Positions 21,423 to 27,486 of a DNA stretch of 64,000 nt are shown here, piece by piece. Under the pieces are notes generated by a model. That model saw only the letters and a list, made by a program, of their open reading frames with translations. It was not told where the DNA came from and did no database searches. The translations under genes and the position numbers were made by a program. The DNA comes from Thermoplasmata archaeon (GTDB lineage Archaea > Thermoplasmatota > Thermoplasmata > Lutacidiplasmatales > UBA184), in NCBI GenBank assembly GCA_021817245.1, contig JAKAVQ010000001.1:124001-188000 (forward strand), in the 5' to 3' direction. Each line of letters starts with the position of its first letter. Within the stretch, counting starts at the first letter, position 1.

Positions 21423-22453
21423 TCGGGCGAACCTCCAAACGTTTCGAGGAGGGTCTGATGGCCGCGGGTCTCGGCGGGGTTCGTGCTGGCGCGGGGACGC
21501 TGCCGTGCCCGCTGGACCGCTGCCCGGACCCGGGCCTCCGCGAAGCCGTGCCCGCCCACCAGGAGGCGGACGACCGCCTCCTCGTCCACCGGCCCGAACG
21601 AGGGGGCCGGGACATCGATCGCGTTCGGGTGCCGGAAGATCTCCGCGACCTCTCGGCTCTCCGCGGCGTCGAGACCAGCTTTCGCGACCGTGGCGTCGAA
21701 CCCGAGATGCTCCCGGACCAGCTTGAGCGCCTTCTTGGGGCCGTATCCCGGGGCCCCGTCGTTGAAGTCGGTGCCGACGAGAAGGCCGATCAGGATCAGC
21801 TCGTCCCCGTCGATCCCGAGCGCGGTCAGTAGCTCGTGCCGGTCGATCAGCTGGGCTCCGGGGCTTGCCCCCCCACGCCCCCGGGCAGCCAGCCCCCGAA
21901 CGAGGCGGGGGGCACCGAAGAGAAGGCTGTCGTAGTCCTCCGACGCCGCGGCCCAAACAGAGCCCCGCGCGGCCATCGCTGCGGCCTGCGCCTCGCCTTC
22001 CCCCGGTGCCTGGATCGCGGGGACCCCGAGGGACTGGAGGAGGGTCGTGATCTCGTCGACCATGGGGCGGGTGAGCCGGCTCGTCTGCGCCGCCTTCCGC
22101 CGCGCCGTCTCGAGGTCGCCCGCGGCGAGCGCCTGCTGCCACTCCGCTTCGGCCTTTTCCTTGATCTCGATGCGCTGCCGGATCGTGCCGGCCTTGCGCT
22201 CCGGCGGCTTTCCGTCGAAGACCCAGATCGGGAGAACCCCCTCGCGGAGCAGCGAGGTCGTCCGGTAGAACACTCCCATCAGGTGGCTCGTCACCCGGCC
22301 CTCGGCGTCGCAGAAGAGCTGCCCGTCCCGCTGGCGGATCGTAGCGAGGAACTGGTACGCGGCGTTGTAGCCGTCGACCGCAAGGGTGCGGCCCGCGAGC
22401 GCCTCCCACGGGATCTCCTGGGGGGTGACGATGTCCTTGAGCGGGAGCCCCAC
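21419..22453 (-). CDS. fen: Flap endonuclease 1
   Basis: Structure-specific 5' nuclease that removes RNA-DNA flaps in lagging-strand maturation and repair. The GTG at 22453 is used as start so the protein begins GLPLKDIVTPQEIPW, like other archaeal FEN1 proteins (344 residues). Metal ligands are visible at D27 (VDGYN), D80 (VFDGKPPE), in GEGEAQAAAMA, in SEDYDSLLFG and in GTDFNDGAPGYGPKKA. The C-terminal QTLLETFG (333-340) resembles a PCNA-binding PIP box. An upstream reading of 36 more residues is threonine/alanine-rich and crosses the divergent PAC2 promoter, so it is rejected. It is the first gene of a fen-ftcD-arfC unit. Confidence 0.94.
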   Translation of the reverse strand: MGLPLKDIVTPQEIPWEALAGRTLAVDGYNAAYQFLATIRQRDGQLFCDAEGRVTSHLMGVFYRTTSLLREGVLPIWVFDGKPPERKAGTIRQRIEIKEKAEAEWQQALAAGDLETARRKAAQTSRLTRPMVDEITTLLQSLGVPAIQAPGEGEAQAAAMAARGSVWAAASEDYDSLLFGAPRLVRGLAARGRGGASPGAQLIDRHELLTALGIDGDELILIGLLVGTDFNDGAPGYGPKKALKLVREHLGFDATVAKAGLDAAESREVAEIFRHPNAIDVPAPSFGPVDEEAVVRLLVGGHGFAEARVRAAVQRARQRPRASTNPAETRGHQTLLETFGGSPE

Positions 22454-22547
22454 GCCGTCCGCGAGGCGGCGCGGAGTACTTGGCACTTTTCGCGCCGCGG
22501 ACGCACCCTCATTAGGGCCGGCGGGTGTGGTCGTCGAGGTGAGGGCA

Positions 22548-23366
22548 GTGGTAGAGTTCACCTGGCGGGAGGAGGTTCCCCCCTCCGCAAGCTACGGTCC
22601 GGGGTCGGTCGTCGTCTCCGCGTTCCCGAGCGCCGGGCTCGCGACGATCGTGGCCGCCCACTACATGATCCGCGCCCTCAAGCTACCCCGTATCAGCCGA
22701 TTCGACTCCCCGGACGTTTCGCCGATCGCGATCGTCCAGAGCGGCGAGGTCAACCCGATGGTCCGCGCGTACGGACAGCCGAACCTCGCCCTCGTCCTAT
22801 CTGAGTTCCCGCCGACGCCGGCCCAGGCGAACGCGCTCGCGCGGTCGATCATCGACAGCGCCGAGCGCCACCGGGCCCGCCTGATCGTCTGTCTCGAGGG
22901 GGTCGTCCCTCACCCCCTCGGCGAAGAGGAGGGCGAGGGGACGGAGGAGGAAGGTGGGGCCGTCGCGGGCCTCGAGGACCAGACTCCCGAGCAGGTCTGG
23001 GTCGCCTTCTCCCATCGAGACGCCGCGCTCGCCAAGCTCTTCGAGGGGGCGGGAGCCCGCCCACTCGAGGACGGAGTGATCGGCGGCGTTTCGGGGGCCC
23101 TGCTCGTTCAGAGCATCGGCCGACCGATCCCGGTTGCGGTATTGCTGGTGAGCGCACGCGTGGCCGGCGGGCTTCCCGACCATCGGGCGGGCGCCGCGCT
23201 GATCGAGACGCTCGACCGGCTCCTGCCCGAGATCCGCATCGATACGACCCCGCTCCGCGCCCAGGCTGAGCAGATCGAGAAGGCGTTGCGTGCCGCGATG
23301 AAGTCGCGGCCGAGCTCGGCGCCGGCAGAGGTTCCGGCGACGCCCTCCCCCGAGATGTACCGCTGA
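22548..23366 (+). CDS. PAC2 family protein (proteasome assembly chaperone-like)
   Basis: Archaeal PAC2-family protein of 272 residues. Typical segments are VVSAFPSAGLATIVAAHYMI near the start and the SPIAIVQSGEVNPMVRAYG strand. A central loop is rich in glutamate and glycine. Archaeal homologues are thought to act as proteasome-related chaperones; direct function here is not shown. The GTG at 22548 is chosen because GAGGTGA (22536-22542) is placed as a Shine-Dalgarno site 5 bases before it. Earlier GTGs at 22527 and 22539 are alternatives. It diverges from fen1. Confidence 0.87.
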   Translation: MVEFTWREEVPPSASYGPGSVVVSAFPSAGLATIVAAHYMIRALKLPRISRFDSPDVSPIAIVQSGEVNPMVRAYGQPNLALVLSEFPPTPAQANALARSIIDSAERHRARLIVCLEGVVPHPLGEEEGEGTEEEGGAVAGLEDQTPEQVWVAFSHRDAALAKLFEGAGARPLEDGVIGGVSGALLVQSIGRPIPVAVLLVSARVAGGLPDHRAGAALIETLDRLLPEIRIDTTPLRAQAEQIEKALRAAMKSRPSSAPAEVPATPSPEMYR

Positions 23367-23415
23367 CCGGGCGCGGTCGAACGGGACCGTGGTCCGGAGG
23401 TCCTCGAGACCCACC

Positions 23416-23583
23416 TCAGGCGAACGTCTCGGTGTACGAGAGCAGGTAGAACGCACCGGCGATCATCACGGCGATGAGCGCGAAGATCGCGACGGGGTTC
23501 GAGCTGAACGCGATCACGGTGACCCCAAGCAGGATCGCCGGAAGCACGAGGGTGAGCAGTACCGTCGTGAGGCGTCCGTCCAT
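23416..23583 (-). CDS. Two-helix small membrane protein, unknown
   Basis: A 55-residue protein with two hydrophobic helices (TTVLLTLVLPAILLGVTVIA and VAIFALIAVMIAGAFYLLS) joined by a short FSSNP turn. It ends SYTETFA. The ATG at 23583 is preferred over a GTG at 23610 because a CTTAAG element lies 27-32 bases before the ATG and begins right at that GTG. No family recognised. It lies downstream of the FtsZ-like operon on the same strand but appears to have its own promoter. Confidence 0.65.
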   Translation of the reverse strand: MDGRLTTVLLTLVLPAILLGVTVIAFSSNPVAIFALIAVMIAGAFYLLSYTETFA

Positions 23584-23609
23584 CGGACCGGCCCGGAACC
23601 TCCCCCTCA

Positions 23610-23615
23610 CTTAAG
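23610..23615 (-). promoter_or_regulatory. TATA-like CTTAAG element
   Basis: CTTAAG 27-32 bases before the ATG at 23583; it matches the leaderless spacing seen at other genes of the window. Confidence 0.5.
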
Positions 23616-23703
23616 GTTGAGCGACGGGGGTCGGAGCGTGCCTTTCGGTCCCGCCCCGGTTCCCCGTCCCTCGAGGGGTCCGTCCGGGGGGCGCACGTCC
23701 CGC

Positions 23704-24627
23704 CTACGAGATCGTCGGCGGTCGCGCGCCAGCGTCGACCTCGAACGTGAGCTCCGCTTCGACGCCTCCGAGTGAGACGCCGGGAAGCGGTGAGGGGATC
23801 TCGGGAAGGACCGGGGGTACCGGTGGGACGACGCCGAGCGCGGGGATCTCGACCGCCGGGAGGCGGTTCATCGGCGGTTCGTTCACGGCCCGGGTCAGCT
23901 GCATCGCTTCGAGAATGGCCTCGGCGGGCGCAAGGAACGACTGCTCGATGTGGTCCTCGATGACGTTGGCCCAGTGCTGGCTGAGCCGGGAGATGGCCAG
24001 CCGGCCCTCGCTGCGAGCCAGTGCCTCGTTGTCGAGGATCTGGAGCGAGGCGCATCCGCGCTCCCGCTTCTCCACGAACGATTCGACGAAGTGAAGCCGG
24101 CCGATCGACCGGTCCGCAAGCGCTCGTCGCTCGCCTTCGGCGCGGAACGGCTTCACGACGAACGCGCTCACGACTTCGGCATTGCGGGAAGCGACCTCGA
24201 GGATGTAGGGGAACGCACCGCTCCCGGCCCCGCCGCCCATACTGCCGACCAGGATGACGAAGGTCGCGCCGTGGAAGATCCGTTGGAGCGCGGGCTCTGA
24301 GGCACGGGCCAGCATCCCCCCGACGAACGGCGAACCGCCGGTGTCGACGTCGGCGCCCGAGTCGGGTCCGAGATAGACCCTTCGATCGAACTCGTCGAAG
24401 CCCTGGACCTTGGGGTCGCAGTTGATCGCCACGCACTCGAGATGCCGGATATGCTGGCGTGCGATCTCCCGTGCGATCCGGATCGCCCCGCCCCCGACCG
24501 CAGCGAGGACGAATCGCACGTCCTGTCCGAGCCGCAGAGGGGGGTCCCACTCCGCGCTTCCGGGATCGCTGTAGCCTAGGCTGGCGCTTCGGTCTCCTCG
24601 TGTCCGCTCGGCCTCGTAGGTCCCCAA
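23704..24627 (-). CDS. FtsZ-like GTPase lacking the FtsZ C-terminal domain
   Basis: Tubulin/FtsZ superfamily protein of 307 residues. The nucleotide-binding half is clear: VLAAVGGGAIRIAREIAR (40-57), CVAINCDPK (65-73), the tubulin signature GSMGGGAGSGAFPYILEVA (128-146) and VVKPFRAEGERRALADRSI (157-175), then helix H7 material to about residue 245. The T7 loop with the catalytic NxDxxD motif and the whole FtsZ C-terminal domain are missing. They are replaced by a proline-rich stretch (about 250-285) and a short tail. Start appears to be a TTG at 24627; a GTG at 24519 is an alternative. It follows a double ribbon-helix-helix gene by 40 bases. FtsZ-like families without the second domain have been proposed for membrane remodelling; its role here is unknown. 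Confidence 0.85.
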   Translation of the reverse strand: MGTYEAERTRGDRSASLGYSDPGSAEWDPPLRLGQDVRFVLAAVGGGAIRIAREIARQHIRHLECVAINCDPKVQGFDEFDRRVYLGPDSGADVDTGGSPFVGGMLARASEPALQRIFHGATFVILVGSMGGGAGSGAFPYILEVASRNAEVVSAFVVKPFRAEGERRALADRSIGRLHFVESFVEKRERGCASLQILDNEALARSEGRLAISRLSQHWANVIEDHIEQSFLAPAEAILEAMQLTRAVNEPPMNRLPAVEIPALGVVPPVPPVLPEIPSPLPGVSLGGVEAELTFEVDAGARPPTIS

Positions 24628-24667
24628 ACCCCACCCCTTGGCTGCGGGCTCGACCGCTCCGTGGACG

Positions 24668-25168
24668 TCACCGGCCGACGACCCCCTTCCTCTCGAGGTC
24701 CTTGCCGCTCTCTTGGAGGGCTCCGACCTGGGTCCGGGTCTCCACCGCCTCGCGCACCGTTGCCCGAGCTCGTTGGACGAGCTCGTGGACCTTCAGCTCC
24801 ATCTCGCCCCGACGGACCACTTCCGCGAGGGTGTCCCTCACGGGGCGGCCGTTGCCGATATGGCGGCTGTAGGTCTCGAGGTCGGCGTACTCTTCCGGTC
24901 GCAGACGCACGGTGACTTCCACGAAGCCATCGGCGTCCACGGGGGGAGTCGGCGCGGTCGACATCGCGCGGGAGCGGAGGAACGCGTGCAGCGCCGCCCG
25001 CATGAGATCCGACCGGGTCGGGAACTCGCCGCTCGAAACGAACGAGTCGACCAGGCGAAGCTCGCTGCGGTTGCACCGTAGGGCGATGCGCGCGTCCTCC
25101 CGCTCCTCCCGGAACTCCTCGGGCGCAGGAGCGCCTTCCTTTTTCCGGTGGGATGCGTTGTCGAACAC
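24668..25168 (-). CDS. Ribbon-helix-helix regulator with two RHH-like domains
   Basis: DNA-binding type protein of 166 residues. One RHH-like unit spans about 27-66 (IALRCNRSELRLVDSFVSSG then TRSDLMRAALHAFL) and a second about 83-124 (VEVTVRLRPEEYADLETYS then VRDTLAEVVRRGE). A helical C-terminal tail follows. It is the first gene of an operon with the FtsZ-like gene. In haloarchaea the small RHH protein CdrS is encoded next to ftsZ2 and controls cell division, so a similar role is plausible but not shown. Start is a GTG at 25168 with a TATA box 29-38 bases upstream. Repeats TGTCGAAC over its start and upstream may be operators. Confidence 0.82.
   Translation of the reverse strand: MFDNASHRKKEGAPAPEEFREEREDARIALRCNRSELRLVDSFVSSGEFPTRSDLMRAALHAFLRSRAMSTAPTPPVDADGFVEVTVRLRPEEYADLETYSRHIGNGRPVRDTLAEVVRRGEMELKVHELVQRARATVREAVETRTQVGALQESGKDLERKGVVGR
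25160..25167. promoter_or_regulatory. TGTCGAAC motif, copy 1
   Basis: Eight-base motif right at the start codon of the RHH gene, downstream of its TATA box. Two further copies lie at 25264 and 25285. A repressor bound here would block transcription of the RHH/FtsZ-like operon. Confidence 0.4.
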
Positions 25169-25196
25169 AGCCGAGCATGGACATGGAAAGTTCCTC

Positions 25197-25206
25197 TACT
25201 TAAACG
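25197..25206 (-). promoter_or_regulatory. TATA box of the RHH/FtsZ-like operon
   Basis: CGTTTAAGTA on the minus strand, 29-38 bases before the GTG start at 25168. It predicts a very short or absent leader. Confidence 0.55.
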
Positions 25207-25556
25207 CGAGGCTGACTCGCTGACTATATTTCCGCAATGTTTCCCAACATCGGTTTTCTGACGTGTCGAACAGTCCCCCACAGCTGTCGAACGCAGAATC
25301 GATCGGCATGTCTAGGAGTATAACCACGCGCGACCGGGTGCCGGATGGGAGTTCGGGCCGGGGCCGCGCTCCCTTTCGTCGCCATCTCCCGCAAGAGGCC
25401 GAACTTGGGCTGTTCTGTGCAAGTAGGGTGGGGAGATCGCCGACCCGCCCTGGGCGGTCGACCCACGCAGAAGGGCGGCTCGGCGACCGCACTTTGCCCA
25501 GTGGGGCGCCTCGAGGCGAGCGAGCTGGGAGCACGAGGGGCTCGGACGGCCCGACG
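25207..25556. other. Intergenic region between RHH gene and pilin repeat
   Basis: About 350 bases with no convincing gene. Open frames here give arginine/serine/proline-rich proteins without domains and are taken as chance. It holds the TGTCGAAC pair and an A/T-rich segment (around 25222-25255) but no RNA gene was recognised. Confidence 0.5.
25264..25292. promoter_or_regulatory. Two TGTCGAAC motifs 21 bases apart
   Basis: Direct repeats of TGTCGAAC at 25264-25271 and 25285-25292. The 21-base period puts both on the same face of the helix, upstream of the operon TATA box. Together with the copy at 25160 they form a candidate operator set for the RHH protein; this is inference. Confidence 0.4.
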
Positions 25557-26349
25557 CGCCCCAGGAACCGCGAGTTCAAGTACTACGTCCCGGGCTGATG
25601 CGCTTCTGTCAAGGCGACACGCGACCCGGGCCGCATCCGGCGCTCATCTAGCCCCGGCTATGGTCGTGCGCGATTATGCGCATTAGTGTGTATATCGTTG
25701 ATTGGCGAATGTGGCATCGTTGAACGCCGTCCATAGGGCCTCAGGCTTGAAATAGTAGGTCCCGGCCATACGGAGACCCGCGGGTCAATTGGGCCCTCGG
25801 AGGAAGAACGAGAATGAACGTCTTGGGAAAGAGAGAGCGTAGCTGGCGAAAGGCGCGGAAGCGCGGGGTGTCACCGATCATCGCGACCATCTTGCTCGTC
25901 GCGATCACGGTCGTGTTGGCCGCCGTGTTGTACGTGCTGATCTCCGGACTCACGACCGGGCCAGGAAACGCCCCGCTGGGGTCCCACTTCGGGTGGGGAG
26001 CTCCGTCCAACACATCCGCGGGCACCGCCCTGACCTACACGGTCGGGATCGCCTCGGCCAGTGGGGTTAGCGTCTCGAACCTGAACCTGGGTCTCCACAG
26101 CCCCGGTGGGAACTCCCTCGCGCTGGCGACGTACGTCTCGACGATCGTGCTCGTGAACGCCCAGGGAAGCACGATCGCGACTTACTCCACCTCGAACGGA
26201 GCAGGCACGGCCGCGACGGGCTTCAACGGCGTGCTGTCGGCGGGCATGAGCATCCAGATCACGGCCGCGACGGGTCTCTTCGGCGACTCGCTGGTCGGGA
26301 TCGGGGTCGGCTCGTACTCGGGCACGGTGACGTCGAGCGCGTTCCCGTA
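25557..26349 (+). repeat. 793-base direct repeat, copy 1 (pilin unit)
   Basis: Matches 26693-27485 at a constant offset of 1136 bases. By eye the two copies differ only at 25571-25572 (CG against TA). The repeat covers about 257 bases upstream of the pilin gene plus the whole coding region. Identity ends inside the stop codon, so copy 1 ends TAA and copy 2 TAG. Confidence 0.93.
25690..25696 (+). promoter_or_regulatory. TATA box of pilin copy 1
   Basis: GTATATC about 118 bases before the pilin ATG, in the only A/T-rich part of the repeat and just after a palindrome ATGCGCAT (25676-25683). It predicts a leader of roughly 90 bases, long for this genome, and a Shine-Dalgarno site GGAGGA at 25799-25804. 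Confidence 0.45.
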
Positions 26350-26350
26350 A
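25814..26350 (+). CDS. Archaeal type IV pilin (copy 1)
   Basis: Pilin-like surface protein of 178 residues. The N-terminus has a class III (prepilin) signal, basic KARKRG followed by VSPIIATILLVAITVVLAAV, the archaeal Pilin_N pattern; cleavage would be expected after the glycine by a prepilin peptidase. The rest is rich in Ser, Thr, Gly and Ala with little charge, forming a probable beta-rich head. It has its own promoter, a Shine-Dalgarno site and a stem-loop downstream. The identical protein is encoded again 1136 bases away. Confidence 0.9.
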   Translation: MNVLGKRERSWRKARKRGVSPIIATILLVAITVVLAAVLYVLISGLTTGPGNAPLGSHFGWGAPSNTSAGTALTYTVGIASASGVSVSNLNLGLHSPGGNSLALATYVSTIVLVNAQGSTIATYSTSNGAGTAATGFNGVLSAGMSIQITAATGLFGDSLVGIGVGSYSGTVTSSAFP

Positions 26351-26372
26351 AGGGTCACCCCGAGTCACGGCA

Positions 26373-26400
26373 GCCCCCGAAGGGGCGACCAAACCATTTC
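26373..26400 (+). terminator. Stem-loop and pyrimidine tract after pilin 1
   Basis: A short GC hairpin (GCCCC, loop CGAA, GGGGC at 26373-26386) followed by a segment CAAACCATTTCCT and a T/C-rich run. A similar hairpin plus the same CAAACCATTTCCT follows pilin 2. Termination role is inference. Confidence 0.4.
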
Positions 26401-26692
26401 CTGCTTCTTTACTTCAGGACTCCTCCGGGCATCCCGCGACGGGGGGCACGGGCAGCCTATTCTTCTGTCCGGCCCGTGCCCCAAACCAACCACGGCCTCG
26501 TCATGGGGAGACCTGAGACTCGATGCTTGTTCCGACGAGCGCTCCTGCAGTGGTCGGCCCGCTTGGTGTTCCCTTCGGCGGAGCACGCACCTGCGAGTCT
26601 CTAGACACTGGGTTGTTTGATCCCTTACTACCTAGCCGGTCCCCTGCGCTGTACGATGTGCTGCGCGCCGCAACTGGTCCCGCAAACCTGCC
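26401..26692. other. Spacer between the two pilin repeats
   Basis: About 290 bases not shared by the two copies. No gene, RNA or transposase remnant was recognised. There is a GC-rich inverted repeat around 26440-26473 (GGGCACGGGC against GCCCGTGCCC) that may fold in RNA. Confidence 0.45.
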
Positions 26693-27485
26693 CGCCCCAG
26701 GAACCGTAAGTTCAAGTACTACGTCCCGGGCTGATGCGCTTCTGTCAAGGCGACACGCGACCCGGGCCGCATCCGGCGCTCATCTAGCCCCGGCTATGGT
26801 CGTGCGCGATTATGCGCATTAGTGTGTATATCGTTGATTGGCGAATGTGGCATCGTTGAACGCCGTCCATAGGGCCTCAGGCTTGAAATAGTAGGTCCCG
26901 GCCATACGGAGACCCGCGGGTCAATTGGGCCCTCGGAGGAAGAACGAGAATGAACGTCTTGGGAAAGAGAGAGCGTAGCTGGCGAAAGGCGCGGAAGCGC
27001 GGGGTGTCACCGATCATCGCGACCATCTTGCTCGTCGCGATCACGGTCGTGTTGGCCGCCGTGTTGTACGTGCTGATCTCCGGACTCACGACCGGGCCAG
27101 GAAACGCCCCGCTGGGGTCCCACTTCGGGTGGGGAGCTCCGTCCAACACATCCGCGGGCACCGCCCTGACCTACACGGTCGGGATCGCCTCGGCCAGTGG
27201 GGTTAGCGTCTCGAACCTGAACCTGGGTCTCCACAGCCCCGGTGGGAACTCCCTCGCGCTGGCGACGTACGTCTCGACGATCGTGCTCGTGAACGCCCAG
27301 GGAAGCACGATCGCGACTTACTCCACCTCGAACGGAGCAGGCACGGCCGCGACGGGCTTCAACGGCGTGCTGTCGGCGGGCATGAGCATCCAGATCACGG
27401 CCGCGACGGGTCTCTTCGGCGACTCGCTGGTCGGGATCGGGGTCGGCTCGTACTCGGGCACGGTGACGTCGAGCGCGTTCCCGTA
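26693..27485 (+). repeat. 793-base direct repeat, copy 2 (pilin unit)
   Basis: Second copy of the repeat at 25557-26349, same orientation, two mismatches by eye (26707-26708). It has the same TATA box, leader, Shine-Dalgarno site and coding sequence. Confidence 0.93.
26826..26832 (+). promoter_or_regulatory. TATA box of pilin copy 2
   Basis: Exact copy of the element at 25690-25696, at the same distance from the start codon, so both pilin copies should be expressed under the same signals. Confidence 0.45.
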
Positions 27486-27486
27486 G
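26950..27486 (+). CDS. Archaeal type IV pilin (copy 2, identical protein)
   Basis: The 178-residue product is identical to that of the gene at 25814. The class III signal, hydrophobic N-helix and Ser/Thr-rich head are as in copy 1. Perfect conservation including silent positions means recent duplication or ongoing gene conversion. The stop codon is TAG instead of TAA because the repeat ends within it. Downstream lies a stem-loop (27511-27533), then a separate PKD-domain pilin-like gene on the same strand. Confidence 0.9.
   Translation: MNVLGKRERSWRKARKRGVSPIIATILLVAITVVLAAVLYVLISGLTTGPGNAPLGSHFGWGAPSNTSAGTALTYTVGIASASGVSVSNLNLGLHSPGGNSLALATYVSTIVLVNAQGSTIATYSTSNGAGTAATGFNGVLSAGMSIQITAATGLFGDSLVGIGVGSYSGTVTSSAFP

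Follow-up and report, generated by a model that had tools for sequence, protein, structure and literature searches.

In tubulins and FtsZ, the T7 loop of one subunit activates GTP hydrolysis at its neighbour, and it is T7 together with the second domain that defines how these proteins work. TubZ forms polymers and possesses a second domain, and its partner TubR is a winged-helix protein, not a ribbon-helix-helix (RHH) protein. In haloarchaea, the regulator CdrS pairs with ftsZ2 (PMC7439475, PMC8406309), and in archaeal FtsZ a GID-type motif binds SepF (PMC8178401). FtsZl1 (Tubulin_2) has an FtsZ-like GTPase domain from which the usual C-terminal domain is absent; instead the type protein, of 1051 aa, carries an extended coiled coil and a helical C-terminal domain, and its gene lies in another context (PMC2875224).

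The 64-kb window analysed here (a single stretch of an archaeal chromosome of the class Thermoplasmata) contains a gene for a truncated FtsZ-like protein, designated FtsZ-L, and a gene for a tandem RHH protein (Table 1). As in the CdrS-FtsZ2 pair, the RHH gene is directly upstream of, and co-oriented with, the FtsZ-family gene, there are operator-like sites in the promoter and the best NCBIfam match of the RHH protein is CdrS (1.3e-5, below cut-off). However, CdrS is a short RHH protein (the NCBIfam model has 61 positions), whereas the 166-aa protein encoded here is of the tandem RHH type, has a long C-terminal helix and ends in a conserved LERKGVVGR. FtsZ2 is full length and has T7, in contrast to FtsZ-L, which has kept neither T7 nor the second domain. 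The full-length RHH-linked FtsZ of the same genome is encoded separately, on contig C1.

Table 1. Features of the FtsZ-L locus, numbered from the first nucleotide of the window.
Feature	Position	Strand	Evidence or remark
Truncated FtsZ-like protein (FtsZ-L)	23704..24627	-	307 aa, TTG start, TAG stop; same-length orthologs
FtsZ-type GTPase domain, residues ~33-205 (T1-T6)	24011..24531	-	AlphaFold2, Foldseek, motif table
Helix H7, residues ~212-249, unbroken across the T7 position, without NxDxxD	23881..23994	-	AlphaFold2, motif table
Variable Pro-rich linker, residues ~250-290, predicted disordered	23755..23880	-	Alignment, AlphaFold2
Conserved C-terminal peptide (A/V)ELTFEV, residues 291-297	23737..23757	-	Ortholog alignment
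Tandem RHH protein, CdrS-like, 166 aa, GTG start	24668..25168	-	40 nt gap to FtsZ-L
TATA-like box TTTAAGTA, -36 of RHH start	25197..25204	-	Upstream-region comparison
Conserved element TGTTCGACA(CGTCAG), -103/-104, candidate RHH operator	25264..25272	-	Upstream comparison
Second operator-like site GTTCGACA, 21 nt farther upstream	25285..25292	-	Upstream comparison
Third copy of TGTTCGACA, over RHH start codon, encodes conserved F-D-N/K	25159..25167	-	Upstream comparison

Orthologs of FtsZ-L with 46 to 75% identity over most of its length occur in most genomes of the same genus (101 genomes searched). A class-wide profile search found the protein in 24 of the 26 same-genus genomes that are at least 90% complete, as well as in further genera of the archaeal family; scores were at least 220 bits within that family and fell to about 100 or less beyond it. 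Dozens of orthologs are known in this one archaeal family, UBA184/Lutacidiplasmatales; those hosts that have names are MAGs of Thermoplasmata, UBA184 and Candidatus Lutacidiplasma silvani among them. The TTG start is well placed, since most close orthologs have GTG at the identical position. From codon analysis against six orthologs (dN ~0.11 to 0.18, dS 0.8 to 1.2), the GTPase domain plus H7 is under strong purifying selection.

The initial annotation of this gene as an FtsZ-like GTPase with its C-terminal domain missing holds. Pfam Tubulin (PF00091) matches FtsZ-L (8e-14) and there is no Pfam match to the FtsZ_C activation domain (PF12327); NCBIfam ftsZ (TIGR00065) covers only model positions 23 to 161 of 353, at 71 bits against a cut-off of 295. 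The AlphaFold2 model, run on 48 family members, shows a confident FtsZ N-domain (33-205) and a single helix (212-249) unbroken where T7 would be, followed by a disordered tail of about 58 residues; confidence is low for the first 30 residues and for most of the chain beyond residue ~255. Foldseek aligns FtsZ-L to ~167 to 200 of the ~305 residues of solved FtsZs, in the N-half only, and the solved sequences nearest to it are FtsZ. The T7 motif NxDxx[DES] is present in 30 of 31 FtsZ1/2 proteins and in all nine RHH-linked full-length FtsZs compared, and in none of the 31 FtsZ-L family members examined. On the established FtsZ/tubulin mechanism, FtsZ-L subunits would not be able to stimulate GTP hydrolysis in one another in the manner usual for these proteins.

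The GTP-binding half had been described as intact, which is true of T2 (NxD), T4 (GGGxGxG; GGGAGSG in FtsZ-L), T5 (PF..E..R) and T6 (LDN) but not of the whole: Arg takes the place of the T1 Asn in 30 of 31 family members, T3 is altered and the Asp of H7 that contacts guanine has been replaced. Judged from these motifs, nucleotide binding is likely, with uncertain specificity, and the T1 substitution together with the lost H7 Asp could make it weak or altered. Similarly, T7 and the second domain are indeed absent, but to describe them as replaced by a Pro-rich tail is incomplete, as the tail also ends in the conserved peptide ELTFEV, whose E, L, T, F and second E are each conserved in 42 to 48 of 48 sequences. 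FtsZ-L thus resembles canonical archaeal FtsZ1 and FtsZ2 in its GTPase fold, in T2, T4, T5 and T6 and in a disordered tail ending in a conserved peptide; it differs in having neither T7 nor FtsZ_C and in belonging to a separate clade. ELTFEV stands in place of the GID motif of archaeal FtsZ, with a similar plan of linker and docking peptide. In the helix that replaces T7, Glu E236 (23920-23922 in the window) is conserved in 47 of 48 sequences and may be a remnant or a new contact.

FtsZl1 also lacks the usual C-terminal domain. However, FtsZ-L is not to be filed under it because of the coiled-coil and helical C-terminus of FtsZl1 and its different gene context; the match of FtsZ-L to Pfam Tubulin_2 (PF13809) is not significant (E 0.15, 11.8 bits, cut-off 27). 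Membership of FtsZl1 or FtsZl2 was rejected on domain evidence.

Truncated proteins of this kind extend well beyond the FtsZ-L family. Most sampled families of the class Thermoplasmata, whose members range from soil acidophiles to methanogens, have short ORFs (~234 to 300 aa) that end after H7. Among truncated proteins overall, T7 is absent from 67 of 67. A conserved tail is specific to each major subgroup, such as LDSFLENY in group B. A search of 250 genomes of the phylum gave short high-scoring matches in the class Thermoplasmata only, among the matches listed, and full-length proteins in the other classes. FtsZ-L does not cluster as an ordinary FtsZ: in a GTPase-domain tree of 57 rows and 198 columns, unrooted and without CetZ rows, a single branch with support of 99/96 sets all 35 truncated proteins, FtsZ-L among them, opposite 22 full-length FtsZs. 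The tree has long branches, the stem of the FtsZ-L family amounting to 1.5 to 2 changes per column; the C1 paralog of the host genome (L003) and four divergent full-length proteins termed 'Y' were left out as long branches. Full-length FtsZs that follow an RHH gene also occur in the class; duplication of a cdrS-ftsZ2-type pair, with subsequent loss of domain 2 from one copy, would therefore be the simplest history.

The cdrS-ftsZ2 pair and FtsZl1/2 have been described already. T7-less RHH-linked FtsZ-like proteins appear to be new, being undescribed in the open-licence full-text literature, although such absence is weak evidence. They could be missed by surveys, since sequences with less than 60% alignment coverage were discarded in a large one (PMC9871819).

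The association with the RHH gene is strict. This gene is directly upstream of FtsZ-L, on the same strand, in 28 of 28 same-genus loci having upstream sequence (the window included) and in 58 of the 62 named loci, the remaining four starting at contig edges. Outside the FtsZ-L family, a tandem-RHH gene precedes all 36 truncated ftsZ-like genes that were read. In the most distant family members (L093-L096), it is the sole conserved neighbour found. The predicted structure of the RHH protein has two helix pairs and the long C-terminal helix, and its closest solved relatives in the PDB are RHH proteins of the CopG/ParD type. Co-transcription alone, without physical contact, would explain the pairing. 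Between FtsZ-L and the PAC2 gene is a small hydrophobic ORF (23420-23582, minus strand; ~55 aa, starting MDGRLTTVLL).

The RHH promoter is also conserved. Of 42 loci, 37 have TGTTCGAC in front of the RHH gene (maximum of five in shuffles), nearly always at -103/-104, and there is often another copy 21 nt farther upstream and a third over the RHH start codon. Exact TGTTCGACA occurs twice in the whole 64-kb window, both times at the RHH locus. The degenerate pattern GTNNGACA is over-represented in front of RHH genes in groups A, B, D and E and in the set linked to full-length FtsZ, with 13 to 23 sites per group against 0.5 to 1.1 in mononucleotide shuffles (13 in A with 0.6 expected; 15 in B, 23 in D and 20 in the full-length-linked set, each with 0.5 expected). 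The pattern was picked after groups E, A and B had been seen and was hinted at by the full-length set; group D is the independent case. The operator-like sites are repeated at a spacing of 20 to 22 nt. Probably, GTNNGACA sites are autoregulatory RHH operators that have been conserved along with the gene pair. A further conserved element, GGTTATAC (window ~25320-25327, minus strand), lies upstream in 24 of 42 loci. A scan for sigma-70-type promoters, a type irrelevant for archaea, found none.

Elsewhere in the host genome there are two canonical FtsZs (contigs C6 and C31) and the third full-length paralog on C1, and the genome also encodes SepF. The C1 paralog has FtsZ_C, a degenerate T7 (NVDLAS) and its own tandem-RHH gene just upstream. 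A search of the genome for paralogs with the RHH profile matched the window gene alone and thus does not demonstrate a shared ancestry of the two RHH genes. The promoter at the C1 paralog (L003, G000:C1:102263-102745) carries GTCAGACA/TGTCTGAC sites.

A different FtsZ complement is found in family f8 (the DISCRIMINATING case), in which mcrA was present in 11 of 11 genomes tested. The family therefore consists of methanogens of the class Thermoplasmata, presumably Methanomassiliicoccales; an assignment to Thermoplasmatales was dropped, as proteasome alpha sequences were against it and mcrA indicates a methanogen family. In 19 f8 genomes (95 to 99% complete) no FtsZ_C domain is Pfam-detectable, and all 19 have the truncated protein, with an RHH gene upstream in 8 of 8 loci read. 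SepF is encoded in about 8 of the 19. Many f8 genomes hold a divergent full-length FtsZ paralog, from which the T7 motif was absent in 4 of 4 read. The divergent, T7-motif-less full-length proteins L199-L202 of f8 genomes are encoded beside ribosomal protein genes, and at least two of them follow an RHH gene. In a check for ESCRT, the Snf7 profile detected its Sulfolobus control weakly. Four genomes of another family, f19 (G085, G094, G113 and G217; 97 to 99% complete), gave zero tubulin-family matches. This is in line with the published loss of FtsZ from Picrophilus, Acidiplasma and Ferroplasma (PMC10936438), if f19 corresponds to that group.

We give roughly even chances to FtsZ-L being a single-domain paralog that acts as a nucleotide switch or adaptor and does not self-assemble. 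The pair would go back to the duplication of a Thermoplasmata operon of the cdrS-ftsZ2 type, and FtsZ-L would be co-transcribed with the tandem-RHH DNA-binding protein, which probably autoregulates the operon via GTNNGACA sites ~21 bp apart. The N-domain of FtsZ-L would bind nucleotide but have no T7 to offer a neighbour, making it a switch or adaptor instead of a self-assembling cytomotive GTPase. Its C-terminal peptide (ELTFEV in the FtsZ-L family) may dock a partner, which could be the RHH protein, a divisome protein or FtsZ, and this docking might tune cell division or tie division to DNA or gene expression. More tentatively, and at clearly less than an even chance, the tandem RHH protein and the T7-less, single-domain FtsZ may form a class-wide Thermoplasmata system in which the FtsZ acts as a GTP switch, linked to DNA, that controls the cell cycle. 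In some methanogens of the class, this FtsZ would be the sole well-preserved FtsZ-family protein left, and the system would work without canonical FtsZ.

The clade has lost T7 and the second domain yet is strongly selected across the class, always beside a CdrS-like regulator, and suggests reuse of the FtsZ GTPase domain outside polymer dynamics. It opens to test a GTP-switch arm in the control of archaeal cell division. It also raises the question of how the methanogens of the class divide, if all of their FtsZ-family proteins lack the catalytic loop.

Alternatively, FtsZ-L might cap or terminate FtsZ filaments. The nucleotide face of FtsZ-L would bind the exposed T7 face of full-length FtsZ, which would supply the activating residues to FtsZ-L, and growth would halt in an end block like that of SulA or MciZ. 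These inhibitors of FtsZ ends are not tubulin-fold proteins, unlike FtsZ-L, but may share with it a way of working, occupation of the T7-side face of FtsZ. From established FtsZ structure, FtsZ-L keeps the domain whose top face meets the T7 of the neighbour in filaments; T4 to T6 are conserved and full FtsZ1, FtsZ2 and SepF are encoded in the same genome. The top interface is, however, altered at T1 and T3 across the family. Capping would not be the general function because the 19 methanogen genomes without Pfam-detectable FtsZ_C keep the truncated protein, unless the 'Y' proteins act as its partner. It is a possible but rather unlikely account.

A DNA-partition or nucleoid system, with the RHH protein as centromere- or DNA-binding partner and FtsZ-L as NTPase, would resemble TubR-TubZ or ParR-ParM. 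Like TubZ-TubR, the pair combines a tubulin-family NTPase with a neighbouring gene for a DNA-binding protein and with DNA repeats (here at 20 to 22 nt); the pairing is strict and persists without canonical FtsZ. However, systems of the TubZ type need a polymer, for which FtsZ-L has neither T7 nor second domain. The sites overlap the promoter of the operon itself, and autoregulation is the simpler account. Furthermore, TubZ-TubR is plasmid-borne and has a winged-helix adaptor, whereas the RHH pair is chromosomal (on a 340-kb contig) and in conserved synteny, PAC2, XPG-type nuclease and formiminotransferase (FTCD) genes coming after FtsZ-L in near relatives. A search for viral relatives found none. 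A partition role is improbable.

It is also improbable that FtsZ-L forms a novel polymer through a non-tubulin interface, such as the long H7 or the tail. Such an interface could be made by the long exposed H7 and by E236, which is conserved where T7 used to be, but the predicted fold suggests no second interface.

A toxin-antitoxin module, in which the RHH protein would be the antitoxin and the FtsZ-like protein, encoded after it, the toxin, is very improbable. The RHH gene does come first and the nearest RHH proteins in the PDB are CopG/ParD antitoxins, but presence in nearly all of the more complete same-genus genomes, the PAC2-XPG-FTCD synteny and the class-wide distribution are the pattern of a core gene; toxin-antitoxin and mobile-element readings were both rejected on these grounds.

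A frameshift, an assembly error or decay of an FtsZ paralog might be suspected in a gene that is short and without a normally essential domain, but is refuted almost beyond doubt by the orthologs, since all complete ones, across many assemblies, share one architecture and a length of ~295 to 331 residues (~305 aa), dN is far below dS and no remnant of an FtsZ C-domain was found in any frame of window 22000-25200.

Beyond the promoter, the window contains near-identical tandem copies (25557-27486; 300 nt, 99%, spacing 1136) and two copies of an identical type IV pilin gene encoding 178 aa (25814-26350 and 26950-27486). In many related loci, pilin genes likewise lie upstream of the RHH gene.
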